From positions 36,470,799 to 36,534,798 of the forward strand of contig OZ020593.1 in assembly GCA_963971535.1 (NCBI GenBank): a stretch of DNA of 64,000 bases, written 5' to 3'. Position numbers and translations under genes: made by a program. The DNA is from Notolepis coatsorum (Eukaryota > Chordata > Actinopteri > Aulopiformes > Paralepididae). This document shows positions 20,151-58,885 of the stretch, one piece after another; the first letter of the stretch is position 1; each line of letters begins with the position of its first letter. The notes below the pieces were generated by a model. That model had not been told where the DNA came from, searched no databases, and saw nothing but the letters and a program-made list of their open reading frames with translations.

Positions 20151-20458
20151 CCTCTTGTGTCGTTCTGTGCCATTTGTGCCTCCATCTTGTCGGCATACGT
20201 CCTCTTAGCAGTTTTAACAGCCTTGCGCAGAGTGTAGACTGTTGTCTTGTACTCGTCCATGTTTCCTGACTCTCTGCCCAGGTTGTAAGCAGTGGTGCGA
20301 GAGTTCAGGGCTGCTCTGATAGTACTGTCCACCCATGGTTTCTGGTTTGGGAACACCGTCGCCCTCTTTGTGGGGACAATACTATCAGCCAGCGTTGTTA
20401 TGAATGACACCACAGCGTCTGTGAACTCACTGACGTCACTGGTGCTCCTCTCGAACAT
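20144..20458 (-). CDS. LINE ORF2, linker between endonuclease and RT
   Basis: A 104-residue frame (MFERSTSDVSEFTDAVVSFI, VFPNQKPWVDSTIRAALNSR, AYNLGRESGNMDEYK) that is the conserved segment between the APE endonuclease and RT in Rex1/CR1-type LINEs. It is in a different frame from the endonuclease and is terminated on its 3' side by the small LINE-tail insertion. Confidence 0.75.
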   Translation of the reverse strand: MFERSTSDVSEFTDAVVSFITTLADSIVPTKRATVFPNQKPWVDSTIRAALNSRTTAYNLGRESGNMDEYKTTVYTLRKAVKTAKRTYADKMEAQMAQNDTRGL

Positions 20459-21548
20459 TCCCCAGTCGGCGACGTCTAGTGCGTCCTGAAGCGTGGCCTC
20501 TGATTTGGTCGTCCCATTTTTTTACCTCACGTGACACGACGGCGTCACGTGATCTCTGTTTGTACGCGGGGACCAGCAAGATGGCGGCATGATCCGACGT
20601 GTTCATTGCTCCCGCTAATGGTGGGGCCGGTACAGCCTTGTATCCGGCTCTGAACAGGGTGTAGCAGTGGTCGAGTGTATTTCCTCCCCTTGTGGAGCAG
20701 ACGATGTGCTGAAAGAAAGACGGCATGACTTTTTTCAGATTCGCCTGATTGAAATCCCCGGCTACGATCATGGCTGCGTCTGGGTGCTTGATTTGGTGAG
20801 TGTTCAGGTGGTCGTGTAGTTCCGCTAGCGCCCTGCCGACGCTCGCCTGGGGTGGAATGTACACTGCAGTCATGATCACTGCAGTGAACTCGCGTGGAAG
20901 ATGGAACGGGCGACATTGGATCGTGAGGTGTTCCATGTCGGGAGAGCATGAACGGGAGAGTATCTTCACCTCCCCGGGGCTAGTCCAGCCGTTGTTGGTC
21001 ATCAGGCAGAGACCCCCGCCGATGCTTTTCCCGGAGGCTTCTGTACGGTCCGCTCTGAAGATGGTGAAGGAGTTGGAGGGAGAGATGCTGTGATCGGGAG
21101 TCACTGATTTCAGCCAGGTCTCCGTGAAACACAGGATATTGCATTCCTTCATCTCTCGCTGGAATCGGACCCGCGCTCGTAGATCATCCATCTTACTCTC
21201 TAGCGAACGTGCATTCGCCAGGAAGATAGATGGAATAGCCGGACGGTAAGCAGATCTTCTTAGTCTTAATCTGATCCCGCTCCTCTTCCCCCTGTGTTTC
21301 TTCTTTGTCTTACGGCCGTCTCCCGCGTCTTTGTCTCTTCTGATCTCCATTGGCCATTCTTGGCATGATAAAGTGTCTCTAAACTCCTCTTTGAGTCCGG
21401 AGTTTAGGTCAATAAGTGACTGGCAGTCGTATGACGTCCCCGCCAGTGATGCTTCAATAAAAAAAGTAGTAAAAACAAACATAATAACAAAAAATTTGCA
21501 CATTCGTTGCCGAGCAAAACCCACGGCGACTGACTCGGGTCGCGCCAT
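20436..21548 (-). CDS. LINE ORF2 N-terminus, APE-type endonuclease
   Basis: A 370-residue frame starting MARPESVAVGFARQRMCKFF, near the element's 5' end. It nicks target DNA to prime reverse transcription. Visible APE motifs: SIFLANARSLESKMDDLRAR (about residues 108-127), CNILCFTETWL with the catalytic Glu (about 135-146), VYIPPQASVG, DAAMIVAGDFNQ with the conserved Asp-Phe-Asn (about 260-272), TLDHCY and the C-terminal SDHAAI motif. The N-terminal 90 residues contain a hydrophobic stretch and a basic KKKHRGKRSGIRLRLRR patch. The frame drifts after residue about 345 (EVKKWDDQI), so the C-terminal tail of this frame is not native. Confidence 0.8.
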   Translation of the reverse strand: MARPESVAVGFARQRMCKFFVIMFVFTTFFIEASLAGTSYDCQSLIDLNSGLKEEFRDTLSCQEWPMEIRRDKDAGDGRKTKKKHRGKRSGIRLRLRRSAYRPAIPSIFLANARSLESKMDDLRARVRFQREMKECNILCFTETWLKSVTPDHSISPSNSFTIFRADRTEASGKSIGGGLCLMTNNGWTSPGEVKILSRSCSPDMEHLTIQCRPFHLPREFTAVIMTAVYIPPQASVGRALAELHDHLNTHQIKHPDAAMIVAGDFNQANLKKVMPSFFQHIVCSTRGGNTLDHCYTLFRAGYKAVPAPPLAGAMNTSDHAAILLVPAYKQRSRDAVVSREVKKWDDQIRGHASGRTRRRRLGNVREEHQ

Positions 21549-21962
21549 GTAGTAGGGTCATCTGTGGCACTTCCGTGACCGTGGAGAGCGAAGGTCCGTT
21601 TCTCAATGGATTTGTCATCTAGGAGGGTTAATAAACAAATGTAGCTGGGGTGTATTTTTTTAAAAAGCGGGGAAAATTCGTGAGAGACCAAAATCCAAAA
21701 TGGCTGCCGTGGAAATGAACTTTTTAATGGACATTCGTTGCTGAGCAAAACCCACGGCGACTGACTCGGGTCGCGCCATATAGTAGGGTCATCTGTGGCA
21801 CTTCCGTGACCGTGGAGAGCGAAGGTCCGTTTCTCAATGGATTTGTCATCTAGGAGGGTTAATAAACAAATTTAGCTGGGGTGTATTTTTTTTTAAAAGC
21901 GGGGAAAATTCGTGAGAGACCAAAATCCCAAATGGCTGCCGTGGAAATGAACTTTTTAATGG
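21501..21962. repeat. Tandem duplication, 231-bp unit, spanning a LINE/transposon junction
   Basis: 21501-21731 and 21732-21962 are nearly identical. Each unit consists of about 51 bp of the Rex1-like LINE 5' end (CATTCGTTGC...CGCGCCAT) fused to about 180 bp of the transposon's inverted terminal repeat (GTAGGGTCATCTGTGGCACT onward). The duplication must postdate the junction of the two elements. Confidence 0.9.
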
Positions 21963-22310
21963 TTTGACCTATAATGATGCACAATACATGGTTTCAGAGC
22001 TTATTTTGATCAAGGAATACATATTTGGTGTTTACCTTGTTGACCTTCAAATGCATGATGGCTGCCAATTTTGAGCTCCAAAATGGATTTCTTTCAAAAT
22101 CGTCACAGAGCCTTCATATTAGCTCTAATGAAAGCTCTGCTCATGATGAGTTGAGTTATGGACAGAGGGGATAGGTGGCTATCTTCCACCATACTCCATC
22201 CATCTGTGAAAGTTGGAGACATGATCACCCCTGTTTGCTTCAGCAGGGTAGGTTATTGGCCCCAGATGCTGTTTCCACAAGGTTGTCTGACTGCTTTGTC
22301 TGACCTCTCA

Positions 22311-22702
22311 TGTTACGATTCTGGTTCTTGACTACGGTCGGGAACCTCCCACCTTCTCTGTCATCTGTCACTTGATTACTGTCACTTGTTTTCCCTGTAA
22401 TTTAGTGCTGTCAATTAGGGGTTGGCTTCTGATTGGCTGTCACGGGGGTGTGTGTGGAATGTTGGTATTTGGTGGCTATATAACATTCCTTTCCTCTGCT
22501 TGTCATTTGTCAGGTCTTCACTATAGGAGTTCGGAGATAACGCGGGCGGTTCCAGTTCTGGACCACCACTAAGCTCCATTACCTAATTCTCTCGTTCCCT
22601 TGCCTTGGCATAGTATCCTAGTATTACTCTTTGTGTTATTTACTATTAAAGTCGAACCTGTTCAAGAGTATACCTTCTCCGTCTCTGTGATTGCCTACAA
22701 CA
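22311..22702 (+). repeat. LTR-like segment, Gypsy-type (fossil)
   Basis: It runs from TGTTACGATTCTGG to GATTGCCTACAACA, with a TATATAA box near 22479 and an ATTAAAG polyA-like signal near 22645. The next about 150 bp end in a purine tract, AAAAGGGAGG. It looks like a partial LTR element within the DNA transposon. No second LTR was seen, so it is a remnant. Confidence 0.45.
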
Positions 22703-22859
22703 ATTGGAACTCACCTACCTCCATCCTGACACTCTCACCCTAGACCTGTCCGGTTTGGTAAAACCTTCTAGGATTTTCCTCCTACTGGCATAGCTCTCAG
22801 GGTTCACTGAGGTACTCAAGCTCCCTTACAACGACAAGGTGAACAGTCAAAAGGGAGGT

Positions 22860-23230
22860 GTTTTTTTTCTTCTTTTTTTTAATATATGTTTTGTAACTTT
22901 TGTATAAATATGGTGCTTCAACAAATAGCACTCCAAAATAATAATTGATCAACTAGTAGCCTAATTAAGGGCAGATTTGGAGGCAACAGCATCTCCCCCT
23001 GGCTGACACAGCAACTGAACCATGTAATGTCAAACTGAAAATATAATTGTTAGAATAAAACACACTAATGTTCACATCACAATATTAAAAAAGAAAGGAA
23101 ATAAGGGTGGAGAGAAAAGGCTGGTAGAAAACACAAAATACAGAGTAGGGATGGATATAAAATAAGCTAAGCAGATGATATAATGTAACAACTTGTTGTT
23201 GATGGATGATGAGAACGGGAGACAGAATCA
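22860..23230. other. Transposon interior, no gene seen
   Basis: A/T-rich sequence between the LTR-like insert and the coding remnants. It contains a T run at 22861-22880. No motif was recognised. Confidence 0.4.
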
Positions 23231-25925
23231 CTATTCTTCATCAGAATCTGTTGATTCTCCACACTGACTCCATTCATCATCACTGCTACTCTCATCTGAG
23301 CAGTCATGAGATGTGAGCTGCTGGGGCAAGGGGGGAAGGGTATGACGCACTGGCCGGCACTTCCTATTCACTAGTTCCCAGCCGTGACCAATGGGGGAAG
23401 GATGTTCTTGAAGGTTGTAATGGAGCTGGCAATATGTAATGTAGTTTGTTCTTTCCACATGAAGATCCAAGGAGTCCTCATCAGGTGGGAGACGAATCGT
23501 ACACTTCTTCTTCAATTTGTGCCACTTGGAAGCTCTGGCCTGGCCACACGTAACATCTGCACTCTCAGCGTAAACAATTGAGAGGACAAATGCTTTCATA
23601 TCTGCTCTCACTTCATCTTTCATCACCCACTTGTCCCAGGAGCTCTCTTGCCTCAGGAACAACCATCACCTTCTCCAACACCTTTTTCTTTCCATGCCCA
23701 TAGAAGCCTGAGGTGTGGTCACTGCCACGGAGAGGTATGATGTCTGCAACCTCTTCAGAGAGCATTACACAGCAGTTGATACATGCATTCTTGCGTCTGT
23801 GTCTCTGCAGTCTAGAACAACAGGTCCAGTGTAGTTGGTGGTCCTCACCTTTGCATAGGCGGAGAGCAGCATTGTATCTGCCTCTGGATGTTTGAAGACA
23901 TACTCTCCATTAGCGATGCCAGTGATGAGGTTGGTTGACACTTCTCCCTCACAGTATATGATATCACCCTGCACTTGACCAACTTGTGTTTTCAGCTGTT
24001 CTTTCACAAGTTTTTGCAATCTGACCTTGTTTCCTGAGTTGACCATGAGTTCACTGAATTCAGCAGCACCTGGGAACCTGTCTTCGGGTTTCAGGAAAAC
24101 ATTTGGGACGTGTGGATGTTTTGCTCATCATCATGCTCATCATCCTTGATGCTGAAGGGAAGGTCATACTTGTCATTGATGAGAATGATGAGGTAAGCAT
24201 TGGCATGGCGTGAGAAGATGATTGCGCAGATTTTATGCAGGTAGAACCATCCCGCTTCCTAGCCTCTCGGTCCTCAGGTGTGGGGGTGGCAAGCCGCCAT
24301 ATCAGACCCATGTCTACAAGGCTCACGTAGTTCTGCGGTTCCTCAGGAACTGGTTCTAGGGTGAAAAGCTCTAACAACTTGCTCTTCACAGTCTTGCGCA
24401 TTGACCCATCCACATTGAAGAGTGAAAGGCACTCCTCTTTCACTCTTCTCTCAAGGGATGACTCAAGTTGTATCATACCAGATCCCTCTGCTAGGTCTAC
24501 CAGGGGCGCTAGTCCTGATCTCTCCATATGGGCCACCTGCATATGAGCATCAGAAGGTGCGCAGCTCTTTTCACTTGCAAAATTCCATCTCTTATTCCTG
24601 TGGATGGTTGCAGTAAGAGGCTTGATCTTGGTGAACACCCGCTCTTGCAGAAAAGTCTCAACCTGAGCTTGGCCATCTGGAATTGCAGTCTTAAGGTCAT
24701 GCAGTAACTCTGGTGAGGAGACGAGGCCAGACTGTAGTGACCTCAGTGTAGGTGAGGAGATGTCAAATGGATCAGCTTCAAAATCCCTCATGCATGCCTG
24801 CAGGTCCTGAACTGCTTGCTCATCCTTCTGCATCCTCGATGGCTGGCATTCGACATGCTTCCTGTGACGACGCTGGCACTGGAGGCCCCGCTTCACACTT
24901 CACCCTTGCAACGTTGTTTGCATTCCTTGTTGTTGAGAACAGTTGTTTCTCATTCTTTAAAAGCTGAGTCCATCCTTGCTTTAGCTTCGAGTTCAGATTC
25001 ATAGTTGTTTATATCCAAGGATTGAGGGGCTGGCAGGAGTAGGGTAGCCCTGTCATCGACTGGGTAAAGTGATCGTTGAAGAACTCCATTTGTTCATCTG
25101 ACAGTGAAGATAGCATTGCCCAGTAGTCTGGCAACCACCTCCCATAGTCATGGTTGTCGTATGCCATCAGTCCTGGCAGCATGTTGTAGGTTGACGATAG
25201 GTACTCAGAGTCATTTCTTGCATGACATGCATCAAGACATTGTACAAGTGGGTCAGACATCTCCAAGAACGAGATCCAAAAGTCCCCCATGTCTGTGCTA
25301 GGCTTCTCATAAACTCTGTTGATCAGCTCCTTCATGTCGCCATCATTCTCAAGATCACAGTAAGCTGTCTGTAGAGCCTCTTGAGTTTCAGTCAGTGCAT
25401 TCCACAGAATGTTGAGGTTCTCCTTGATGTCTTCCGATAGTTCTTTGTGCTCAAGAATCTTTGACAGTTGATTTGGGATAAGAACCTCTCTCAAGAGCAG
25501 GATGCACTGCACGCCCCGTCTGTAGTGCTTTCCTTGTAGTGCTTGGTCTACCGACCCCTCCACTATTACCCCTGCTGTAACCAGAGTGTCTGCCATTCCA
25601 GAGCCTAGATGTAGGACATCAGCTGGTGGAAAGCTCCGAGGATTGGGATGATGTCCTTGAACATTTCTGGATTCTCCGCCTTGAGCTGAGTGATCGTCTT
25701 GTAGGTGGGCAGGTCACCAACAAGAAAGGAGAATGTAATATTCTTCAGCCGCATGGCCTCCACATGTTTCACCATGATGTCACTCACCACTGACTTGCTT
25801 GGAGGTTCATTGTATGTTGTGTGGTAGTAAGGGTTGTGTGGTCTTGTTGGGTGGTGGATGACAGCAGGACTGGGCACCACTGTATCCTGGAACACGCTGC
25901 TCTTCAGGTGGTGGTCTTGTACCAT
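23231..25925 (-). pseudogene. Broken protein gene of the long-TIR DNA transposon, function unknown
   Basis: Consecutive minus-strand frames, in coding order 25605-25925, 25009-25596, 24060-24896, 23765-24046 and 23231-23662, look like one long protein with several frame changes and stops. Recognisable blocks: DLPTYKTITQLKAENPEMF then IPILGAFHQLMSYI; MADTLVTAGVIVEGSVDQAL followed by GKHYRRGVQCILLLREVL; YVFKHPEADTMLLSAYAKVR with VVLDCRDTDARMH; and near the end KWHKLKKKCTIRLPPDEDSL with an acidic Ser/Asp C-terminus. From memory, this block order (GxFH...GKR.AD.G, then a HxEADT and xxDTD pair, then an LPP motif) recurs in repetitive uncharacterised proteins of fish and cnidarians. The acidic pairs could be nuclease or transposase residues, but that is inference. 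It is probably the transposase-equivalent of this element. Confidence 0.55.
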
Positions 25926-26533
25926 GATTGTCTACACAAGACAGTGCATGTATCACAGAGCGAGCACGCTGCGGAGCTGACCCATCCACTGGTGGATCTA
26001 CCCTGGGACGAGCAGGTGGCTCACTCTTGCTACCTGGGGGGCATCTGTACTGGCAAACCTTTGACCACATCCATCAGAGCCCAGTGGTCATAGAGGAGCA
26101 GTGTATCTGCATAGCTGATGCAGAAACCACTCTTGTGCAGTGTCTACCAGATCTTTACTCCTTGTCATGCCATGGACATTTACGCCCAGGTTGATAGCAG
26201 TGGTAATGCGCTGTCCAGTGAGGTGGTACATTCGGACCCAGAGTTTTTGTTAACACCAAAGTAAGATAAATAAATAAGTAGCGCACAAGGGTTAAATTCG
26301 GCTCAAGCAACTAACCTTGCTAGCTTTGCATACAGAATACTATTTTATGTTAGGCTATAGTGCAAAATAATTTTTGGTTCATTATGAAAATGTGATGGTA
26401 TGAACTGGACACCATATTCTCAGTAGCCTACCCTATTTAATGGAAAACCGCAAATCAGTAACTGTTGTTTACACACAAACATTGACTTTATTGACCTCAG
26501 AGATTACTTCTGTGCACGTATACTGTATATTAT
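25926..26533. other. Transposon 5' coding edge and spacer
   Basis: About 25926-26230 may hold further degraded N-terminal coding sequence (minus strand, Cys/His/Pro-rich, for example QYRCPPGSKSEPPARP). About 26230-26533 is A/T-rich without features until the right inverted repeat. Confidence 0.35.
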
Positions 26534-26904
26534 TCAACTCATCATGAGCAGAGCTTTCATTAGAGCCTAATATAAAGGCTCTGTGACGATATTGAAAAAG
26601 ATCCATTTTGGAGCTCAAAATTGGCAGCCATCTTGCATTTGAAGGTCAACAATAGGTCAAATCATTATATAAACACCAAATATGTATTCCTTGATCAAAT
26701 TAAGCATCATTGTAGGTCAAACCATTAAAAAGTCAATTTCCATGGCAGCCATTTTGGATTTTGGTCTCTCACAAATTTCCCCCGCCTTTTAAAAAAATAC
26801 ACCCTGGCAAATTTTTTTTATTAACCCTCCCAGATGACAAATCCATTGAGAAACGGACCTTCGCTCTCCACGGTCACGGAAGTGCCACAGATGATCCTAC
26901 CAAT

Positions 26905-27785
26905 ATCAGACCGTATTAAAGCTGACAGTCTCCCCTGCTCATGACGGTCTCCTGTTGCCCGACACCACAAATGCACATTTTAAGGCAAGCCGTATCAGAC
27001 AGTAGTCTCCTGCTCATGACAGTCTCTTCTGCTCGATACACACACAGTTCAATACCCAACAGTTTTGAACCTGTAATAAACAATAGACAGAAAACTGTAG
27101 CCCAGTGCAATAAAAACCTGACAGTTTTGAACCTGTAATAAAAAGCAATAGACAGAGTAAAATAATACAGTGCAATAATAGAATAGAATAGATAGTATAA
27201 TTATGCAAAAGAATGGACAGAGTAAAATAGTGCTATAGTACAGCGGAGTGTATTAGAAGGCTATGGTGAAGAGGTAAGTTTTTAGCTTTTTTTTGAAAAT
27301 ATTAAGAGATATAGCTTCCCTAATGTCCATAGGTAGTGTGTTCCATAATTTTGGTGCATAGTTTGCAAAGGCTGCATCCCCGATTTTCCTTAGACTGTGG
27401 CTTGGAACCTTCAATAGACCAGTAGTAGATGATCGCAATGTTCTAGGAGGCACATAATTGACAAGATAATTTGCAATGTACTGTAGCTTGGTCCTATTCC
27501 ATTTAGTGCTTTGTATATAAGGAGGAGGACCTTGAAATCAATTCTAAATGTTACCGGAAGCCAGTGTAGGTTAGCTAATACAGGACTGATGTGGTCTCTC
27601 CTCTTGGTTCTAGTTAGTAGCCTAGCTGCCGAGTTTTGAATGAGTTGGAGTCGTTCTGTGTTTTTTTTTGGGAGGCCAGTGAGGAGTGCATTACAGTAGT
27701 CAAGTCGGCTTGAGATAAAGGCATGGATCCGTTTTTCAGCGTCTTTTTGATTTATAAACAGCCGTACCTTAGCTATGTTTCTAAG
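26905..27785 (-). mobile_element. L2-like LINE, ORF2 C-terminus and 3' UTR (continues 17638-18107)
   Basis: The minus strand encodes the C-terminus seen in L2-type LINEs: HAFISSRLDYCNALLTGLPK-like sequence near 27690, RLLTRTKRRDHISPVLANLH near 27590, then PPRTLRSSTTGLLKVPSHSL and APKLWNTLPMDIREAISLNI (27253-27453). The 3' UTR continues to about 26905 and contains small direct duplications (CAGTTTTGAACCTGTAATAA twice). Confidence 0.75.
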
Positions 27786-30330
27786 GTGGACAAATGATGA
27801 TACTCAATCTTTTTGGCCTACTGCGAACCCACGGGCCAACGCTGGCACTAAAGTTCAATCTGGGCTAGGGTATAGTGTGTGTGTGTGTTTATGCAGGTGC
27901 ACGGAGGCAGGCAGACAGGCATACCGGGTGCCTGGGAGGTCAGGGGCTAGGTGGAGTGTTAGCGGGGACGACACCTGACAGCGGCTGGGTGGATGCGGCC
28001 TGGCAGTTCTGTAAGTTCATGTCACTGCCGATAAAAGTCACCGGCCGCCGGGAGGAGAAACCACAGCGCCAGCGCAGCCGGGTCCTCCATGCGGGACGAG
28101 GGGAAGGGAGGACGGGGACACGCGTCCTTCTGCTTTCGTCCTTTCCGTGTCCCCCCGTGACGCTTGCTGAGCAGACGAGTCCAGACAGCCCGGGTGGCCG
28201 TCGGGGCAGGCGGAAGGTGAAGGTGGAGGTGCCAAACGTGGTAAACGCTACCGGTTCATTTCGGGGCATGGGAGGCTAAACCGCGGCGCCCCACGTCTTC
28301 GGTTGTGTAACGGGACAAAAAAAAGAAAAACTTCACAAGAACAGGAAGTCCTACACCTCAGAGGTAACACTGTGGGATGGTCAAATTGTGTTTTAGTGAG
28401 CAATGACAACGGGGTCAGCTTTTGGGGGTCTGGAATGTTTAATACCATTACCGTGGAAGAGGTAAAGGACACGAGTGGCAGGATAGATATCGTCCCGAGT
28501 GCAGAGGGGCCCCGGTTCGGAGTGTCGAGAGGAAGCCCGGTAGCAAGTAATGTAGGAGAATTATGGCACAGCGCCCAGAGAGCCATCGGATCGGACCCGT
28601 GTGTGGCCTCTGCTTACTTCATTACTTCTTCCATGGTAAAGTACAGAGTGTCATAACAATCACAATTTCATCTCATTCATCAAAAACTCGGGGGTGGGGG
28701 GGGTGCATCTGGACCCTGGACACACAGAAAGGTTCCAGGGAAAGGCGAGCTTGTGTTGCACCGAACCTAAGTAGGGGTAACATAGCGGAGTGCCAAAACC
28801 CATCTCGCTTCCCCCATCCTGCAGATCGAGTTGCGCTTCTGTCTCCATGTAGAGGAATATAGAATAAACATACACACACACACCGAGGTACAGGGGCCAG
28901 AAAACCAAGCCAAAGCAATTAGGATTGGACGTCGGGGCAGTCTTGGCAAGCCTCAGGCTGTTCAATAAATCTGCATCATCTTCCACGTTGTGACGGGGAG
29001 CGTCTGAGGGCGGCGGGGAGGAAGAGAGGGATCCACGAGCCCTTCGCCCCCCCTGAACACTAAGCACAGCACGGAGCGGCCTAGGTTACCTGGGGTTGAC
29101 AGGTAAGTCGAGTTGACAAGTCTGTCAAAGTGTTTCCAATTTGCCCCTTGCACAGAAGGTGTGATCTGCCTTGAAGCCAGACACTGCCACCTAGTGTCGA
29201 TATGGTAGGAGTTAGAGGGAACCCCCCCCCCCCCCCCCCCAGACATTTAATTGCTAAAGGACTTAAAAGTATCACTCGGGCCAAAGTCAAGAGCATTTCG
29301 AAATCACGGCGATGGGAGATTGATAATGGATGCTCAAAACTCTCTCCAACCTACGCATGTGTGTGCCGTGTGCATGTACTAATGCAGAGAGCGAAACAAG
29401 CCCGCACACGCTCCCCTCTTTAACCCCCCCCCCCCCCACCGTGAAAGTAGCTGAGCTGCAACTTTTCCGTAACCCGGCACGTAACGGAAGTAATTGTCCA
29501 ATGGGTGGGTTGTGTTTTTCCCCCCATTTCACTTTTCTAAATGACTGCAAATGAGGGGCCGCCCCAGACACTTGTGCTGTAAGCAAAAACAAACTTAGCA
29601 TCCCGCTCTATGGTTAAACGCTGTGGAAAAACTCACCTTCAGCAGTGAGGCGAGGGAGGGGGAAGGAGGGAGGGAGGTGAGAAGGGTGGAGGAAGCAGGA
29701 GGAGGAGGGGAGGGGAGGGGGGTAAGCAGCAGCGGCGGCAGGAGGTGAAAGCGGACGCATGTGCTGTGAATTAGGCTTTCGCGGGCAGCCCTTGTGGTGG
29801 GAGTAACCAAGGAGACGGAGAGCGGGTGTTTCTGCATGGCTGCAGACTGCTGCGCCTGGGGGGCTCACTGACCCGGGTGCGAGCGAGGGGAGGTAGAGAG
29901 ACAGCGGGCCGAGACCTACACTCGCTTGCTCTTTCCCCCCCTTTCTCGCTCCCTCACTCCCTCGCTCTTTCGCCCCACCAGCGGCCCCCGGGGAGCCCTC
30001 GCACGCACCTCCAACCAGCCTCTGTACGCTCTCTCTCTCTCTCCATGTGTTGAGTCTTCTCTCTCTGCCCTTATGTAAGGCCTCTTTCCCCTCTACATGT
30101 GTTGGGGGGCCTCAATCTTTCTCACTCTGCCACTGTGGAAGAGCCCGGCTCTCCTTTCCCTCTCTACGGAGGGAGTCCTTGATCACGTACTCCATCACCA
30201 AAAAAAAAGAAAGAAACAACCCACAGTAGTCACCCTCTCCACCGAATAAGTGTTCAGATTCCTTCATAGGTTTTTGTCAAGCCCCCCTCCCGCGGAGGAG
30301 GGAGGCCGTCTTCAATCGCCGTTTTTAACC
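27786..30330. other. GC-rich low-copy segment, no gene assigned
   Basis: Mixed GC-rich sequence with CpG-containing stretches (28020-28280, 29640-30050), long C runs at 29222-29241 and 29424-29438, and short conflicting frames on both strands. I see no splice-supported exon or known protein motif. It could include a promoter or untranslated exon of a neighbouring gene, but nothing here proves it. Confidence 0.35.
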
Positions 30331-40650: not shown

Positions 40651-43233
40651 TCATTGAGCCCCAGAATTCTTGCTGTAGATATTTATTGATATATCACATC
40701 GAGATATGTAAGAAACCACACTTTTCGGCACATTTTTTCCGGTTGAAACCAACGTGATGCGATCAGTTTTTTTAGCTACTGTGATACCCGATAAAACCAA
40801 TCTTTTTAGTTGTGGATTCACTGCAAACTCAAAAACATCATTCAATAGTAATACCGCGGGGTGTACAGGTATATTCCAAAATACGAGTATTGATAATTGT
40901 TGGGACACATCTTTCCAGAATGCCTTAACTGGTGGGCAGTCCCAATACATGTGCATAAATGTTCCTTCGTCCCCATTTGTACATTGGGAGCATTTGGAGT
41001 CTTGTATAAGCCCCATTTTGCACAGCCTTATAGGAGTCAAGTATGTCCTGTGAATATAGTTCAGATTGATTTGTTGATGATCCGGGTTCCTTGATGTAAG
41101 TCGGACATTTGCCCAGGCTCCTTGCCAATCAAAGTCATATTCCAGGTCTGGTATATCCCTCCTCCATACAGTGTCTAGTTGAAGGGTTTCATACGAGGAC
41201 GTTAGTAATTGATAATAAAAACCTGATACAAAACCTCCCAATGTATCTCTTTCATAGAAAAATTTGTGGTATCTGTGGTGTTCAATTGGTATGAGTAATG
41301 GAACACCGTGAGATCTCATACAAAGTCGTAACTGTATGTAAAAAAGCCATGTGGACTCGGTGAGGTTAAACTTTATGCATATTTCGACATAACTACAGAG
41401 GCCCTTGTTATTACAAATATCCCCTAATGAGTGTATGCCTTTCTCTTCCCATATAGGGAATCTTATAGGTCGTTTTCCCATTAAGAGTGCATTGTTATTG
41501 AATATGGGAGTGTGATTATGCCATTCTTGAGGGTTAGGATATTTCTTTTGTGTTTCCCGCCATGTTCTGATTGCATGGGTAATTATTGGGCCAAATTCTC
41601 GCTCACAATGCTTGATTGAAAGTTTAGTGTGTGCTATGTCTTTCAGTCTCTGTGGGGCTACCATGTTTTCTTCTAATTCTCTCCAAGATACCAAAGCCTG
41701 GGGGTCAAACCATATCTTCAATGGTCTTAATGTGAAGGCCTTAAAATATTGTAAAAAATCTGGGACTGCCATGCCACCGTCTGCTTTATTTCTCTGTGCG
41801 GTGGATCTTTTTATGCGAGGTGGTTTGTTATTCCAAATAAATTTGTATGTGGAGGTTTGTAATCTTTTCCAGTAGCCCTCTGGAGGAGGTAACGGAAGCA
41901 TTGAGCTGAAGAAATTGATTCTTGGTAATACATCCATCTTAACTATTGATACCCTTGCCTGTACTGAGTTTTTAAGTTTTGCCCACCTGTCCAGGTCGTC
42001 TTTGATTTTGTTCTGTATTTTTGTGTAATTGTGCTTCACCGTTTGTCTTATGGTGGGAAATATTTCCACACCCAAGCATCTGAAATGTTTGACCATGGGT
42101 ATCGCACCTGGGAGGGTTGTGTCTTTTTTTGCACTGGTGTTAAGAGGAAGAAAAGCCGACTTAGGCCAATTTATTTTAAATCCCGATAAATCACCAAAGT
42201 TTTCTATCAACTTGAGTATATGCGGCAATGTGTTGTTGGGGTTTTGCATGAACAATATTACGTCGTCCGCATATAAACTAATTTTATGATGTGTGCCCTT
42301 GATTACTATTGGTTCTATGTGTTGGGATTGTCTTATAAATTGTGCTAAAGGTTCTAATGATAGATCGAATAGTCCGGGACTAAGAGGGCAACCCTGTCTG
42401 GCTGAGCGTGATACCGGAAAGATATCGGAGATGAATGTGCCTGTTGTAATCCTGGCCGATGGGTCCTTGTATAGTACTTTAATCATATCAATGAATCCTT
42501 TTCCTAACCCCATCCTTTCTAATACTGCCCATAGAAACGACCATTCCAACCTGTCAAATGCTTTCATAGCATCCAGGGATAGTATCGCCTTAGGTGTGGT
42601 GTCCTCTTTGTCTGCATCTAGTACGTGCAGTATTCGCCTTATGTTATCATTGATCAGGCGACCTTTTATGAAGCCTGTTTGGTCCGGATGAACTAAAGAC
42701 GTCATATGCTTTTGCAATCTGATGGCTAATATCTTAGAGTACAGTTTGACATCGGTTCCGAGGAGGCTTAAAGGACGGTAACTACCGCACTCAGTGGGGT
42801 CTTTGTCTTTTTTGTGAAGAACTGAAATGAGTGCGATATTTTGGTGTTTATGGAAGCTTCCCTCTTTGACTGAGTATAAGATCATATTTAGTAATAAGGG
42901 TCCAAATATGTCCCAGCAAGAAATGTACATTTCTGATGGGATACCGTCAATTCCCGGAGCCTTGCCGTTTTTCATTACGGATATGGCCTTCTTGAGTTCT
43001 TCTAATGTGATCGGTACTTCTAACTGTTTAGCGTCGTCCTCCGTAAGTTTAGGGAGAGTAATTTGATTAAGATATGTGTCTAATTTGTCTTGATCAAAGG
43101 TCGTTTCTGAATTATATAAATCGGAGTAGAATTCTTTGAATGTATCATTTATTATTTTGGGTTCTGTTACTAGAGCTTGTTGTTTCCTAATGGCAGTTAT
43201 ATCTGCAAATTTTGCATTAATTCTTAGTCGCAT
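40651..43233 (-). CDS. L1 ORF2, reverse transcriptase and C-terminal part
   Basis: An 860-residue frame from an internal Met to the natural ORF2 stop. RT motifs: MKNGKAPGIDGIPSEMYISC (about residues 92-111), YRPLSLLGTDVKLYSKILAI (about 155-175), LVHPDQTGFIKGR, LSLDAMKAFDRLEWSFLWAV (first catalytic Asp), SARQGCPLSPGLFDLSLEPL and ISLYADDVILFM (YADD box). The C-terminal part has KWSAFLPLN-type and LPLPPPEGYWKRLQTSTYKF blocks and the Cys/His knuckle CSQCTNGDEGTFMHMYWDCP typical of L1. The frame is the same as the endonuclease frame upstream; a single TAA at 43276-43278 separates them. Confidence 0.9.
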   Translation of the reverse strand: MRLRINAKFADITAIRKQQALVTEPKIINDTFKEFYSDLYNSETTFDQDKLDTYLNQITLPKLTEDDAKQLEVPITLEELKKAISVMKNGKAPGIDGIPSEMYISCWDIFGPLLLNMILYSVKEGSFHKHQNIALISVLHKKDKDPTECGSYRPLSLLGTDVKLYSKILAIRLQKHMTSLVHPDQTGFIKGRLINDNIRRILHVLDADKEDTTPKAILSLDAMKAFDRLEWSFLWAVLERMGLGKGFIDMIKVLYKDPSARITTGTFISDIFPVSRSARQGCPLSPGLFDLSLEPLAQFIRQSQHIEPIVIKGTHHKISLYADDVILFMQNPNNTLPHILKLIENFGDLSGFKINWPKSAFLPLNTSAKKDTTLPGAIPMVKHFRCLGVEIFPTIRQTVKHNYTKIQNKIKDDLDRWAKLKNSVQARVSIVKMDVLPRINFFSSMLPLPPPEGYWKRLQTSTYKFIWNNKPPRIKRSTAQRNKADGGMAVPDFLQYFKAFTLRPLKIWFDPQALVSWRELEENMVAPQRLKDIAHTKLSIKHCEREFGPIITHAIRTWRETQKKYPNPQEWHNHTPIFNNNALLMGKRPIRFPIWEEKGIHSLGDICNNKGLCSYVEICIKFNLTESTWLFYIQLRLCMRSHGVPLLIPIEHHRYHKFFYERDTLGGFVSGFYYQLLTSSYETLQLDTVWRRDIPDLEYDFDWQGAWANVRLTSRNPDHQQINLNYIHRTYLTPIRLCKMGLIQDSKCSQCTNGDEGTFMHMYWDCPPVKAFWKDVSQQLSILVFWNIPVHPAVLLLNDVFEFAVNPQLKRLVLSGITVAKKTDRITLVSTGKNVPKSVVSYISRCDISINIYSKNSGAQ

Positions 43234-43275
43234 GGCTAATAGGTGACTAGGTTTAGAGCCTTGGAAGTACTGCTG

Positions 43276-44343
43276 TTATCTTGTGCTGCGTATTTGCAAT
43301 TCCGATTTTTGTCTGTATATTGCTTTGATCTCTGTCTTTAGAATGTTAACTTGGTTTTCTAGTCTAGTAGAGTTGTTGTATTTTAAAGAATTAAAAAGCG
43401 TTGAGTAAAGCGTTTCCATTTCAGATAGTTTTGTGTTTTGATTTTTGCGCAATATGGAGGAAAATCTATCCGAGAAATCCTTGATCATAGTCTTTACCGA
43501 CATCCATAATATTCTGGGATCTTGCACCGAGTTAGCATTATCCCGTAGGAATATTGTGAGAGCTTCTTTAATTTGTGTAATGAATTCATTGTTGTTAAGC
43601 AGCATAGAATTAAAACGCCATCTTGGGGCCCGGGAAGATAGTGTACCAAATGTTGCTTTCAGGATTAAGTAGCAGTGATCTGATAGCGCATTGGGTGTCA
43701 TTTCCACTTCATATTTATCAAATATTCTCGGGGATGCAAAGACGTAATCAATTCTGGATAGTGTGTTGTGTCTCGTCGAACGACAGGAGTACTTGCGGGT
43801 CATGGGGTTAAGTGAACGCCATAAATCAGTTACCCCTGTTGATTTCGACCAATCTTTTAATGCTTTAGATGAATTTTTTTGTTCGCTGGAAAAGGTAAGG
43901 TAAGTTTTGTCCATCCTTGGGTTCCAAATGGCATTAAAATCCGCACCTATTATATATGAGTACTCGGGATGGTTTAACATTTCTCCGGTTAGTGAAGTGA
44001 AGAAACCCACTTCGTACAAATTTGGGGCATATACCGCTGCCAATGCAATTTTCCTGTTATTGTGTATAATCCTAGCTATAGTTATGCGCCCCTCAGCATC
44101 CGACCATACCCCTTTCAATTCGATATTTAATTTGCGTCTGACGACTATGGCTACCCCTCTAGTTCTCGTAACAAAAGAAGAGTGACTAATTTTATGGTAT
44201 ACGTTATCCGCTAACGTATTTATGTCTTCCTCTAAAATGTGCGTTTCGCTTAATAGAGCCACGTCCACATGTTCTTTTTTCATCAGTGTGAGCACGCTTT
44301 TGCGTTTGTGTTGTTTGTTTATCCCACCGGTGTTCCATACCAT
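43276..44343 (-). CDS. L1 ORF2, N-terminal APE endonuclease part
   Basis: 355 residues from near the ORF2 start to an in-frame TAA (43276-43278). Motifs: VWNTGGINKQHKRKSVLTLM, DVALLSETHILEEDIN (catalytic Glu), IALAAVYAPN, YSYIIGADFNAIWNPRMDKT (catalytic Asp, Asn), SRIDYVFASPRI and LSDHCYLIL (the SDH motif). After the stop the same frame continues QQYFQGSKPSHLLAMRLRIN into RT. One nonsense change therefore appears to be the only break in ORF2, though upstream start codons should be checked. Confidence 0.88.
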   Translation of the reverse strand: MVWNTGGINKQHKRKSVLTLMKKEHVDVALLSETHILEEDINTLADNVYHKISHSSFVTRTRGVAIVVRRKLNIELKGVWSDAEGRITIARIIHNNRKIALAAVYAPNLYEVGFFTSLTGEMLNHPEYSYIIGADFNAIWNPRMDKTYLTFSSEQKNSSKALKDWSKSTGVTDLWRSLNPMTRKYSCRSTRHNTLSRIDYVFASPRIFDKYEVEMTPNALSDHCYLILKATFGTLSSRAPRWRFNSMLLNNNEFITQIKEALTIFLRDNANSVQDPRILWMSVKTMIKDFSDRFSSILRKNQNTKLSEMETLYSTLFNSLKYNNSTRLENQVNILKTEIKAIYRQKSELQIRSTR

Positions 44344-45520
44344 TATATTCTAACTAGCCATAATCTATGCATGTTTTTGTGTAGTTTTTGGTAATGCTTC
44401 TGGAGTGTGAAGCTACAATAGATGTACATCCAATTAATGAGGTCCCGTTGAGAGCTGAGCTTAAAAACATATATATATACAAATAAAAATCCCCTATTTT
44501 CCCCTCACCCAGAAAGTCGTACAGGCCTGTGTTCCAAGAACACATCCTCCGCGATTGACTTTCTCCCATAGTCCACCGGATTGCCCAAACTGAGCATTGT
44601 AATCTTAATCTTCCTATGCTAATTGCCATAGGATCTAACATTTCCATTCTATTGCAATAGAATGTCGCTTTTGGTCTTGCACCTTCCCTTACTGTAATGA
44701 AGTATTGTGATAAATGACAGAAAAAATAAAATAAAAAATAAAAAAAGAGAATAAACTTTCATCGACATATTCATTTGAACCCTCTACTAACGTGTGGAAA
44801 AAAGGAAAAAAGGAAAAGATTGTAGAGCAATATTGACACCTTAATGTGAAGAACATTGGAAAAGAACAATGCAAGTTAAAATATATTTTAAAAAATATAG
44901 AGTAATGAGAAGAAAAAATTAAATAAAATAAAAATCAATGGAAAGATATAGATAAGGAATGAGAGATAGAATAATTATCAACGTGGAGAAGCCACTAGAA
45001 CCGAATTAACAGATTAGATAAGATAGAAAAGCAGCGCCTTTTAGAGCTTCAATGTGCCTTCAATGGAGTGATTACTTAAATTGTTAGAATAACCTTGTAG
45101 TGTTCATACGTTTAAGTGTGGTTAATTTTTAAAATATTATTAAGGACTGATTGAACTTCATTTAATTTATTATCTGCTATGTGTATACACACCGGATGTT
45201 TATTGTTAGAGTTGTAGGCTTCGTTGTCATGGTGCCTTATTATTCTAGAAGGTTGTAGAGTATACTAGTGCCTAGACTATTTTATGTTCCAGAATGATCT
45301 AAGAGACCCAGGGCATTTGAGCGATAAACCCAGAATATTCCAGATAGATCTTTTTGCAATGATATGTATTTGTCTCCTCAGAGACCAGAGATTGAAATTA
45401 TAATGTATTATGAATCGTATTATACACAGTACACATTGTTATAGACGGCTTGCATATCGTCTGCTACCTTGATGAACACAATAAAGTCATTCTAACACTG
45501 GTATACATTGAGAAAGAGGC
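44344..45520 (-). other. L1 inter-ORF region, non-coding
   Basis: About 1.2 kb between ORF1 and ORF2 with no long frame and mostly A/T-rich sequence. This is unusually long compared with mammalian L1. It may be normal for this fish lineage or may contain an unrecognised insertion. Confidence 0.5.
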
Positions 45521-50460: not shown

Positions 50461-51725
50461 AACCAGCACTGTAGAAATGATTTACTATTCATTTAATAAA
50501 TGAATTAACCTAAACATGCAATTTAACTGATAATCTGATATACACAAAATGTATTTATTTATGTTAATTTAATTGTGTTGGTGTTTCCTTTTCTGCAAAA
50601 TAAGTATGTACATTCTGTTTGGTTTGGTAAACATCGCAATTAGTCTATCAGTGTACTGTATGTGTAGGGGCAGGTACAAATAAGAATGGTCTTCTTCCCG
50701 TTCCTTTTGGCCATGGAATTTAGTGGAGCATATTAATATGTACTGTTGGACTGTAATAATTCCATGTACGAATAAATAAAAATGAAATGAAAATGAAATT
50801 AAACTATTCCTAACTCAACTATTCCTTCTCAATGTAGGCTTTAGGTTAGCCTGCTGTCCTACTATAATAATGGCACATCAAAAACAGTTGTCTACCAATC
50901 ATAGCAAACTGAAGCATTCGCACCATGTAACATATACTGTGAAAATGGTCGTTAGTTTAATGCTCGTTAATGTTTAATGCTTGTTAACTTGTCACGTGAC
51001 GGAGCACATGCCTCTTAACACTAAAAACAGACATTATTGTTTGGGAAGGTTTTTGTACGGCTGCCTTTTAGTAGTAAACACAACAAAGGTTGATATAAGG
51101 TACAGTATTGCCATGGGGTAACATTGACATGGAGTAAGAGCACATGCTTAACCTCTCCTTAGCCTTAGTGTTTAGGGGACTGGCTGTTCCAGGGGGGTTC
51201 ACTTGCCTTCGAGCAACAACACTTTATGCCTATTCTTATGTCTGCACGTTCTAGGTTGCACTACTTTTATTGTCTTTTATACCTATTCTTATGTCTGCAG
51301 TTTATGCATTGTTTTTATTCTGTCAACTGTATACAAATTTTATGCCTAGGTTCATTTTATGCTATTTGCTGTGGGGCACTTTGGGCTGCGGTCCATATTA
51401 TATTGTAAAAGAAAATGTATGCATTGAAATGTCTGTAAGTCTCGACGACATTGAAAATGAGGTGACCTCAATTGTCCTTTAAGAATAAATAAAGGTTTGA
51501 ATAAAATGTTATTGAAATATAGAAGAAAATGACTATAAAAGATGCACACAATATACCAAGCTTCTTAGCCTTCTCGCCCCCCGGTTCTGAATGACCATAT
51601 AGGTCATATAGCATATAGGCCTCACATTACAACAAGGACACAGTGTCATAGAGACAAAGCATTCTTGCATAGATTAAAGTTATACCTGCCCTGAGGTGAG
51701 CGAGGCAGAGCACTTTTCTCTCGGT
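50461..51725. other. Intron sequence, no feature recognised
   Basis: A/T-rich low-copy sequence. The short frames around 51226-51550 have no motif and overlap each other on both strands. Confidence 0.5.
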
Positions 51726-52200
51726 CAGAATGTCAGTAACACAAATACTTAGCTAATGAAGCTATGGTATAAACACGCCTCAGAATGTCAGTAACTCAAA
51801 TACTTAGCTAATGAAGCTATGGTATAAAGACGCCTCAGAATGTCAGTAACTGAAATACTTAGCTAACGAAGCTACGGTATAAACGCTGCTCAGAATGTCA
51901 GTAACTGAAATACTTAGCTAACAAAGCTACGGTATAAATATGCCTCAGAATGTCAGTAACTCAAATACTTAGCTAATGAAGCTACGGTATAAACACGCCT
52001 CAGAATGTGAGTAACTCAAATACTTAGCTAATGAAGCTACGGTATAAACACGCCTCAGAATGTGAGTAACTCAAATACTTAGCTAATGAAGCTATGGTAT
52101 AAACACGCCTGAGAACATCAGTAACTCAAATACTTAGCCAACAAAGCTACAGTATAAACACGCCTCAGAATGTCAGTAACGTAACGTAACATAAATACTT
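51726..52200. repeat. Minisatellite, 55-bp unit, about 8.5 copies
   Basis: The unit starts CAGAATGTCAGTAACTCAAA and includes ACTTAGCTAATGAAGC and GGTATAAACACGCCT. Copies begin at 51726, 51781 and 51836 and continue to about 52195. Units are uniform in length with scattered substitutions. Confidence 0.93.
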
Positions 52201-53106
52201 GGCGTGCATCGACCCTGGTTTTGGACATATGGAAAATCGTGCTATAATAAAACACAGCCCAGAATGTCAGTCAAATGTAATGGTGTTTTTCTACCGGGAG
52301 CATTCTTACCGGGGTACCCTGTGTCGATGTAGTGAAGTGTGATTGACGTTGATGTCAACCTAATGCTTGTGACTGACTGAATCAGTGACTGATTGTGAGT
52401 GACTGAATCAGTGACTGAATGTGAGTGACTGAATCAGTGACTGAATGTGAGTGACTGATTCAGTCACTCACTGTTTCAGTGACTGAATGTGGTCGACTGA
52501 CTGAATCAGTGACTGATTGTGAGTGACTGAATCAGTGACTGATTGTGAGTGACTGAATCAGTGACTGAATGTGAGTGAGTGAATCAGTGACTGAATGTGA
52601 GTGAGTGAATCAGTGACTGAATGTGAGTGACTGAAACAGTGACTGAATGCGAGTGACTGAATCAGTGACTGAATGTGAGTGACTGAATGTGAGTGACTGA
52701 ATCAGTGACTGATTGTGAGTGACTGAATCAGTGACTGATTGTGAGTGACTGAATCAGTGACTGATTGTGAGTGACTGAATCAGTGACTGAATGTGAGTTA
52801 GTGAATCAGTGACTGATTGTGAGTGACTGAATCAGTGACTGAATGTGAGTGACTGAATCAGTGACTGAATGCGAATGACTGAATCAGTGACTGAATGTGA
52901 GTGACTGAATCTGTGACTGAATGTGAGTGACTGAATCAGTGACTGACTGAATCAGTGACTGATTGTGAGTGACTGAATCAGTGACTGAATGTGAGTGACT
53001 GAATCAGTGACTGATTGTGAGCGACTGTCAGTGACTGATTGTGAGTGACTGAATCAGTGACTGAATGTGAGTGACTGAATCAGTGACTGATTGTGAGTGA
53101 CTGAAT

Positions 53107-53325
53107 TAGGGCTGGGCGATTCTTGCTAAAATGTGAATCACGATTTCTCTCTTAAGAATTGAGACCACGATTCTCATCTCTTCAATAAAATCATTTAAAA
53201 AGTTTAAAAAAAAAATATTTTATAACTTTTTTTTTATAAAAAGAAAATAGTCATAACTTAGAAATGAGATTGCATAGGTCTATGAATCGAGATCGCGATT
53301 TTTTTTTATTAATTGCCCAGCCCTA
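53107..53325. mobile_element. hAT MITE (TAGGGCTGGGC family), copy 1 in the minisatellite
   Basis: Ends TAGGGCTGGGCGATTC and inverted TAGGGCTGGGCAATTAAT. Flanked by GACTGAAT (53099-53106 and 53326-53333). 219 bp, non-coding, forming a long hairpin through AATCACGATTTC and its partner. Confidence 0.93.
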
Positions 53326-53705
53326 GACTGAATCAGTGACTGAATGTGAGTGAGTGACTGAATGTGAGTGACTGAATCAGTGACTGAATGTGAGTGACTG
53401 AATGTGAGTGACTGAATCAGTGACTGAATGTGAGTGAGTGAATCAGTGACTGAATGTGAGTGACTGAATGCGAGTGACTGAATCAGTGACTGAATGTGAG
53501 TGAGTGAATCAGTGACTGAATGTGAGTGACTGAATCAGTGACTGAATGTGAGTGACTGAATCAGTGACTGAATGTGAGTGACTGAATCAGTGACTGAATG
53601 TGAGTGACTGAATCAGTGACTGAATGTGAGTGACTGAATGTGAGTGACTGAATCAGTGACTGATTGTGAGTGACTGAATCAGTGACTGATTGTGAGTGAC
53701 TGAAT

Positions 53706-53912
53706 TAGGGCTGGGCGATTCTTGCTAAAATGTGAATCACGATTTCTCTCTTAAGAATTGAGACCACGATTCTCATCTCTTCAATAAAATCATTTAAAAA
53801 GTTTAAAAAAAAAATGTATAACTTTTTTTTTATAAAAAGAAAATAGTCATAACTTGTTGTATAGGTCTATGAATCGAGATCGCGATTTTTTTTTATTAAT
53901 TGCCCAGCCCTA
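53706..53912. mobile_element. hAT MITE (TAGGGCTGGGC family), copy 2 in the minisatellite
   Basis: Nearly identical to copy 1 with about 12 bp missing. Flanked by the same GACTGAAT (53698-53705 and 53913-53920). Shared flanks and array context on both sides indicate that it arose by duplication of the array block, not by a second insertion. Confidence 0.93.
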
Positions 53913-54215
53913 GACTGAATCAGACTGAATGTGAGTGAGTGACTGAATGTGAGTGACTGAATCAGTGACTGAATGTGAGTGACTGAATCAGTGACTGAAT
54001 GTGAGTGACTGAATGTGAGTGAGTGAATCAGTGACTGAATGTGAGTGAGTGAATCAGTGACTGAATGTGAGTGACTGAATCAGTGACTGAATGTGAGTGA
54101 CTGAATCAGTGACTGAATGTGAGTGACTGAATCAGTGACTGAATGTGAGTGACTGAATCAGTGACTGAATGTGAGTGACTGAATCAGTGACTGAATGTGA
54201 GTGAGTGAGTCACAT

Positions 54216-58264: not shown

Positions 58265-58885
58265 TCCTGCCAACTCTCCTATTAGACCCCCCCCCCCCCC
58301 CCCCCCCACCAGGCCCTCCGAACAAGGTGTGTAACTTCCTGCTAACTCCATTAGAATCCCCACCCCACCCCGGCCCTCTGGACTAGGTGTGTAAGTAACT
58401 CTCCTATTAGAATCCCCCCCCCCCCCCCCCAGCCCTCTGGACTAGGTGTGTAAGTAACTCTCCTATTAGAATCCCCCCACCCCGGCCCTCTGGACTAGGT
58501 GTGTAAGTAACTCTCCTATTAGAATCCCCCCCCCACCCCAGCCCTCTGGACGAGGTGTGTAAGTAACTCTCCTATTAGAATCCCCCCCCCCCCAGCCCTC
58601 TGGACGAGGTGTGTAAGTAACTCTCCTATTAGAATCCCCCCCCCCCCAGCCCTCTGGACGAGGTGTGTAAGTAACTCTCCTATTAGAATCCCCCACCCCG
58701 GCCCTCTGGACTAGGTGTGTAAGTAACTCTCCTATTAGAATCCCCCCCCCCCCAGCCCTCTGGACTAGGTGTGTAAGTAACTCTCCTATTAGAATCCCCC
58801 CCCCCCGGCCCTCTGGACGAGGTGTGTAAGTAACTCTCCTATTAGAATCCCCCCACCCCGGCCCTCTGGACTAGGTGTGTAAGCA
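58265..58885. repeat. Minisatellite, about 55-60-bp unit with C tracts, about 10 copies
   Basis: Unit GGACTAGGTGTGTAAGTAAC then TCTCCTATTAGAATCCCC, a variable C run and CAGCCCTCT. The length of the C tract is the main difference between copies. C-rich on this strand, so G-quadruplex-prone on the other. Confidence 0.93.

Follow-up and report, generated by a model that had tools for sequence, protein, structure and literature searches.

A decayed, multi-copy cut-and-paste DNA transposon of Notolepis coatsorum, probably of the Academ superfamily, with a DUF6589-like and a candidate FEN1/XPG-like protein half

Introduction

In the literature, Academ is listed among the superfamilies that have a DDD/E transposase (PMC9587614), and AcademX, with target duplications of 3 or 4 bp and a nuclease, is set apart from AcademH, which has a helicase and duplications of 9 or 10 bp (PMC10045372). 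The mean length of Academ elements in a bivalve library was 5565 bp (PMC10294476). Among fish, the superfamily has been reported in Xiphophorus (PMC4705583) and in zebrafish, medaka and stickleback but not in tetraodon (PMC4746887); a human place has been matched by Academ-1_NV, in which we read NV as Nematostella (PMC9004415). Here we describe a DNA transposon with probable membership of AcademX that lies in 64,000 nucleotides of the fish Notolepis coatsorum (assembly GCA_963971535.1, contig OZ020593.1, positions 36,470,799 to 36,534,798), a stretch referred to below as the window.

The original prediction for this locus, made from the letters alone, was of a transposon at 21552–26900 with long inverted ends and an unnamed protein family. 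Our analyses showed that the locus belongs to a cut-and-paste DNA transposon that is present in many copies and has inverted ends of about 380–400 bp and a 3-bp target duplication. We consider it likely that it is a decayed copy of an element whose protein combined a DUF6589-like with a FEN1/XPG-like part, and that this element is best placed in AcademX of Academ.

Element Ends and Copies in the Host Genome

The inverted ends of the window copy had been predicted at about 370 bp; they measured 385 and 380 bp and aligned at 84% identity over 399 columns (21783–22165 against 26523–26900). When 13 offsets were considered for each of the two left copies of the end, ATA was the sole direct repeat of at least 3 bp at the boundary. 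Because of this repeat, and because the same boundary was found in other copies, we set the termini at 21781 and 26902. The inverted ends of the original prediction were therefore real, but its left limit had to be moved, as 21552 belongs to the outer copy of a tandem duplication whose unit combines flank (about 50 bp) with inverted end (about 180 bp). The Kimura two-parameter distance between the tandem duplicates was 0.026, compared with 0.087–0.095 between the left and right ends, which indicates that the tandem duplication is younger than the insertion. The terminal 34-mer occurred three times in the window at no more than 3 mismatches, against 0.00 expected.

Other copies were sought in the host genome, which comprises 3.42 Gb in 4787 contigs, with the outer 179 bp of the right terminal inverted repeat (26722–26900) as the query. 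Scoring was confined to the best 40 of 1334 first-look candidates, each of which was reported; one was the window copy, and the identity at the 39 other places listed was 93–95%. Twenty places (L011–L030) were fetched from among the best matches to the window end, a sample that is biased to the window's subfamily. Both ends were present in 13 of these copies, with spans of 1979–5925 bp; eleven fell between 4139 and 5925 bp and the two shorter ones measured 1979 and 3623 bp. The length of the target duplication, which the original prediction had singled out as a check, was looked for up to 11 bp and proved to be 3 bp in nine of the 13 two-ended copies, in each case at the boundary TAGT[AT]GG (ACA, TAT, ATA, GTA, TTC, TAA, ATA, TTA and ATA), where chance would give 1 in 64 for each copy. 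Counting against this uniform picture, the remaining four (L012, L021, L023 and L029) had no duplication at that boundary, and both L018 (5 bp) and L026 (3 bp) fit a neighbouring offset too. For about 12 bp, the two flanks of L023 (1193–5930) were reverse complements of one another, in contrast to the direct repeats found elsewhere.

Protein pieces were identified in 19 of the 20 fetched copies, L021 being the exception. Of the 13 two-ended copies, 12 enclosed such pieces between their ends. Had ends and protein never been found together elsewhere, the original prediction would have fallen by its own terms. Based on the presence of the protein in nearly all copies and on the 3-bp duplications at the boundary, we regard the ends and the protein as one transposon.

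Protein of the Window Copy and Its Relatives

All the protein blocks named in the original prediction (GAFHQLMSYI, GKHYRRG, HPEADT and DTD) were found in the window copy in the order given, on the minus strand, running from 26219 to 23234 over several frames (Table 1). The longest minus-strand frame, of 279 aa, was matched in one of 1000 dinucleotide shuffles, and neither the second-longest, of 234 aa, nor the total in frames of at least 100 aa was matched in any. The claim that the family is unnamed also survived, in that searches of Pfam, NCBIfam (one joined piece only) and PDB with the window pieces gave no relevant match and nothing above its own cut-off. Relatives outside the host genome were not found in viral contigs, plasmids (one piece) or phages (one piece). 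Two pattern matches in genome contigs outside the host were attributed to chance after frame and tblastn checks. We presume that proteins with these blocks are widespread among animal genomes and have gone unnamed.

A protein search of the host genome with a 198-aa block as the query, in which the best 150 of 836 candidates were scored and 155 matches reported, revealed a related second family; by our count among the matches listed, at least 78 were at 44–47% identity over the 198 aa. All three fetched copies of this family (L061, L062 and L063) had uninterrupted natural frames, of 1045, 1030 and 1022 aa. Two of them had both ends, about 4.28 kb apart, with arms of 94% and 98% identity that start TAGTTGGGTC and are similar to the ends of the first family, that of the window copy. 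Both showed 3-bp duplications, CAG in one and TTT in L062, the latter being open to the objection that it adjoins a T-rich flank where other offsets match too. VGD, FH, WIE, LVDMG, EAD, DTD and G[CS]D were common to both families, as was a hydrophobic-N-D block between LVDMG and EAD (IND in the first family, VND in the second). The N-terminal part with DNDDF was not found in L061–L063, the query matching (E < 0.01) only at residues 301–341, and no complete intact element was present among the fetched copies of either family.

Several first-family copies held parts that are missing from the window copy. An IIDNDDF block, absent from the three-frame reading of the window copy, followed the TRSK block in L030 and L026, and L015 and L029 had WIE after GKHYRRG; in the window copy the GKHYRRG block is interrupted and stops just short of this candidate third transposase acid. 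L018 had a longer stretch from DTD to GSD than the window copy, in a natural frame of 321 aa. In L026, an upstream frame had the pattern CVWC...YHYACW, which we read as resembling a zinc finger. CVDN had been a candidate for the first transposase acid and was dropped once the other copies showed the IIDNDDF block.

A possible transposase half was indicated by Pfam DUF6589 (PF20231). Among the frames scanned from other copies, four contain the VGD region, and all four, drawn from both families, gave a sub-threshold match (E values of 0.0012 in L015, 0.012 in L026, 0.0018 in L061 and 0.0006 in L062). The match covered about three quarters of the profile in L061 and L062, and the VGD, FH and WIE positions common to both families fell within the DUF6589-like region. 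Two facts speak against this likeness: the matches reached 14.8–19.0 bits, compared with a Pfam cut-off of 27, and the window copy's own pieces gave none, including the block at 25608–25925 that corresponds to the region which is DUF6589-like in other copies. VGD and WIE are more likely to represent DDE-like acids than are HPEADT and DTD. We take DUF6589 to be a part of Academ.

A Candidate FEN1/XPG-like Nuclease Half

The suggestion in the original prediction that HPEADT and DTD hold catalytic acids is probably correct, but the RNase-H-like reading that accompanied it was set aside as the order and spacing of the acids fit FEN1/XPG better. Judged on these motifs, HPEADT, DTD and GSD make a more plausible FEN1/XPG-like active site than an RNase-H one. 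Seven acids occurred in the canonical FEN1/XPG order at positions common to both families, with spacings of 51/99/25/46 in L061 versus 52–53/69–72/19/61–62 in four archaeal FEN1s, and the first family had a GxD...GxGKK motif. The seven-acid pattern arose in 2 of 100,000 shuffles of the L061 region and in none of the 17 window frames of at least 200 aa. In 200,000 shuffles of the joined window pieces, a five-acid pattern arose 47 times and, with GxG added, once, a pattern that the XPG reference itself fails; the widths of these patterns were chosen with the sequences in view, so that all the shuffle figures for them are optimistic.

Some of the profile comparisons pointed in the same direction. 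The segment GSDHTSGFYGHGKKK / RGSDHTSGFYGHGKKKVL ranked first of 1542 window segments with both FEN profiles (FEN1, and FEN1/EXO1/XPG/GEN1), which share sequences. The FEN score of the joined window pieces was equalled in none of 5000 shuffles with hmmsearch and in none of 300 with local hhalign. For L018, shuffles reached the two hmmsearch scores in 2 and 6 of 3000 trials and the hhalign score in none of 150, and a permissive hhalign alignment placed EADT on EADA, DTD on DSD and GSD on GCD. The element resembles the FEN1/XPG/EXO1/GEN1 superfamily in its seven ordered acids, their similar spacings and, in the first family, the GxD...GxGKK motif, and differs from it in the lack of significant sequence homology, in the fusion to a probable transposase and in a second family without a profile signal. 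As will be seen below, the homology evidence for the likeness is weak and mixed.

Placement and Proposed Mechanism

The 3-bp duplication, the length and the possible nuclease led us to AcademX, and on these described features we regard membership of that lineage as probable. The duplication was seen in the window (ATA), in nine of the 13 first-family copies and in both second-family copies, and the element appears to contain a nuclease-like part, for which the seven-acid pattern speaks and the profile evidence is mixed. We assume the AcademX nuclease to be of the XPG type. Academ also has a finger of the Cys8 type. The length also suits Academ, as 11 of 13 copies spanned 4.1–5.9 kb and the second family 4.28 kb, the copies of 1979 and 3623 bp being unlike it in this respect; the superfamily is, in addition, one reported in teleosts. 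AcademH would belong to the same superfamily if our assignment is right, and it differs in its duplications of 9 or 10 bp compared with 3 bp here; its helicase was absent from the Pfam scans of the frames given, among which there was no complete element. Kolobok and piggyBac have a TTAA target duplication, and hAT and Zisupton one of 8 bp, and neither agrees with the duplications found here, which are 3 bp long and varied. The original prediction held that no superfamily could be assigned and that the class was poorly described. It is indeed little annotated, but it is probably a known superfamily, with AcademX as the proposed lineage.

The original protein was perhaps a single one of 1300–1500 aa, which would have comprised, in order, an N-terminal zinc-finger-like part, the DUF6589-like transposase half and the FEN1/XPG-like nuclease half. 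If it behaved as DDE transposases do in general, the transposase half would bind the long ends and excise the element. The element would then be joined to a target cut with a stagger of 3 bp, a stagger that the duplications show, and the nuclease half might trim flaps or branched DNA at the donor or target junctions. With this proposal a set of unnamed protein blocks gains an identity, having defined ends, a 3-bp duplication, a DUF6589-like half and a testable FEN1/XPG-like site, and what a repair-type nuclease does as part of a transposase becomes a concrete question for experiment.

Alternative Interpretations

With only a single copy within the window, the locus could have been a host pseudogene enclosed by chance between unrelated inverted repeats. 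This explanation is refuted by the copies elsewhere, in which the protein lies between the ends and the boundary is duplicated, and we give it practically no credence. The history of the transposon itself was more difficult to establish. In a search of 21 first-family copies, three frame breaks were identical in sequence, two of them in all readable copies (8/8 and 14/14) and the third in 10 of 12. Since these breaks are held in common, we believe that the family spread as a broken copy, and it was probably multiplied after its own gene broke, mobilised by the enzyme of another element; the copies were picked by likeness to the window end, and intact copies of another subfamily are possible. 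Such constancy, together with the position of two of the three breaks at short T runs, would also be expected of recoding sites or tiny introns in a family that is still coding. We find this decidedly improbable, as neighbouring frame pieces either overlap at the breaks or lie no more than a few bases apart, too close for an intron, the second family reads straight through where the first family breaks, and several first-family copies have additional stops.

It is somewhat unlikely, and nonetheless a serious alternative to the FEN1/XPG-like reading, that the half with EADT, DTD and GSD has another fold, such as a second, RNase-H-like domain or a non-catalytic one. A considerable number of results weigh on that side. 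The best window segment had E values of only 1.1 (FEN1) and 0.26 (FEN1/EXO1/XPG/GEN1), which are not database-significant. Global hhalign of the joined window pieces was equalled by 10 of 300 shuffles, and the FEN1-only profile with a longer joined stretch by 7 of 1000 (2 of 100 with hhalign). The two-family profile was marginal against FEN, at 4 of 200 column shuffles. Taken by itself, the second family had no FEN signal, as 72 of 3000 shuffles did as well and the match lay off the motif; with the FEN1-only profile it gave no match. The Pfam XPG model was absent from all Pfam scans of frames, and the second-family nuclease half gave only Pfam DUF7731, below its cut-off (E 0.011, L061 residues 764–805). 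PDB searches returned no relevant match with L018, whose top match was ClpB (E 0.16), or with a profile of the two-family alignment, and the two natural window segments that were modelled had a pLDDT (predicted local distance difference test score) of 42.6 each, so that the structures were unusable. Set against these are the seven ordered acids at FEN-like spacing and their rarity in shuffles, the permissive alignment of EADT, DTD and GSD with FEN acids, and the first rank of the window segment with both profiles. As for the placement, it is unlikely that the element belongs to a separate, undescribed superfamily with a DUF6589-like transposase and a nuclease that has only the 3-bp duplication in common with AcademX; no named family scored above its cut-off and the literature found on DUF6589/PF20231 was unrelated, but the duplication, length and nuclease agree with what is described of AcademX or Academ. 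A class outside Academ in which one protein held two complete active sites, of a DUF6589-type DDE transposase and of a FEN1-type flap nuclease, with one broken family spread widely in trans, seems to us quite unlikely. If it were real, the same polypeptide would carry out both excision and junction repair.

Features of the Window

Table 1. Features of the window copy, with positions counted from the first letter of the window.
Feature	Coordinates	Strand	Remarks
Whole element	21781–26902	.	Start TAGTAGGG; one minus-strand protein inside
Left terminal inverted repeat, 385 bp	21781–22165	+	Inner copy of the tandem duplication
Right terminal inverted repeat, 380 bp	26523–26902	-	
Left target duplication	21778–21780	+	ATA
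Right target duplication	26903–26905	+	ATA
Tandem duplication of 231 bp, left flank and start of left terminal inverted repeat	21497–21962	+	Units 21497–21730 and 21728–21962, 97%
Solo long terminal repeat (our reading)	22311–22731	.	Nested in the transposon by a later insertion and foreign to it; 421 bp, TGTTACG...CTGACA, with CTCTCA on either side
N-terminal block	26091–26219	-	INLGVNVHGMTRSKDLVD
Block with VGDLPTY and LGAFHQLMSYI	25608–25925	-	VGDLPTY holds the candidate transposase D
Block with GKHYRRG	25012–25605	-	
Linker and first nuclease-like acid	24243–24899	-	LVDMG, D at 24312–24314
Second nuclease-like acid	24094–24243	-	ILINDKYD, D at 24172–24174
Nuclease-like I-region	23792–24103	-	HPEADT (E and D at 23876–23884), DTD (23795–23803)
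Segment resembling the FEN1/XPG helix-three-turn-helix	23619–23795	-	RGSDHTSGFYGHGKKKVL; seventh acid at 23718–23720
C-terminal block	23234–23641	-	RLPPDEDSLDLH, then acidic tail and protein end

Frames resembling those of a long interspersed nuclear element (LINE) flank the transposon on the left (20439–21557) and on the right (27253–27803). The left frame, an endonuclease with an E value of 0.00014 that is below the cut-off, abuts the insertion point; the frames on the right are our own reading, with no Pfam match for 27414–27803. Rfam and transfer RNA scans of the window found none. Further away, at 40654–44349, there is a LINE with a reverse transcriptase (874 aa frame) and an endonuclease (357 aa frame) that are nearly contiguous, and which is perhaps young for that reason. 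Long tandem arrays occupy 51725–52180 (55-bp unit), 52368–54212 (26 bp) and 58299–58883 (54 bp).

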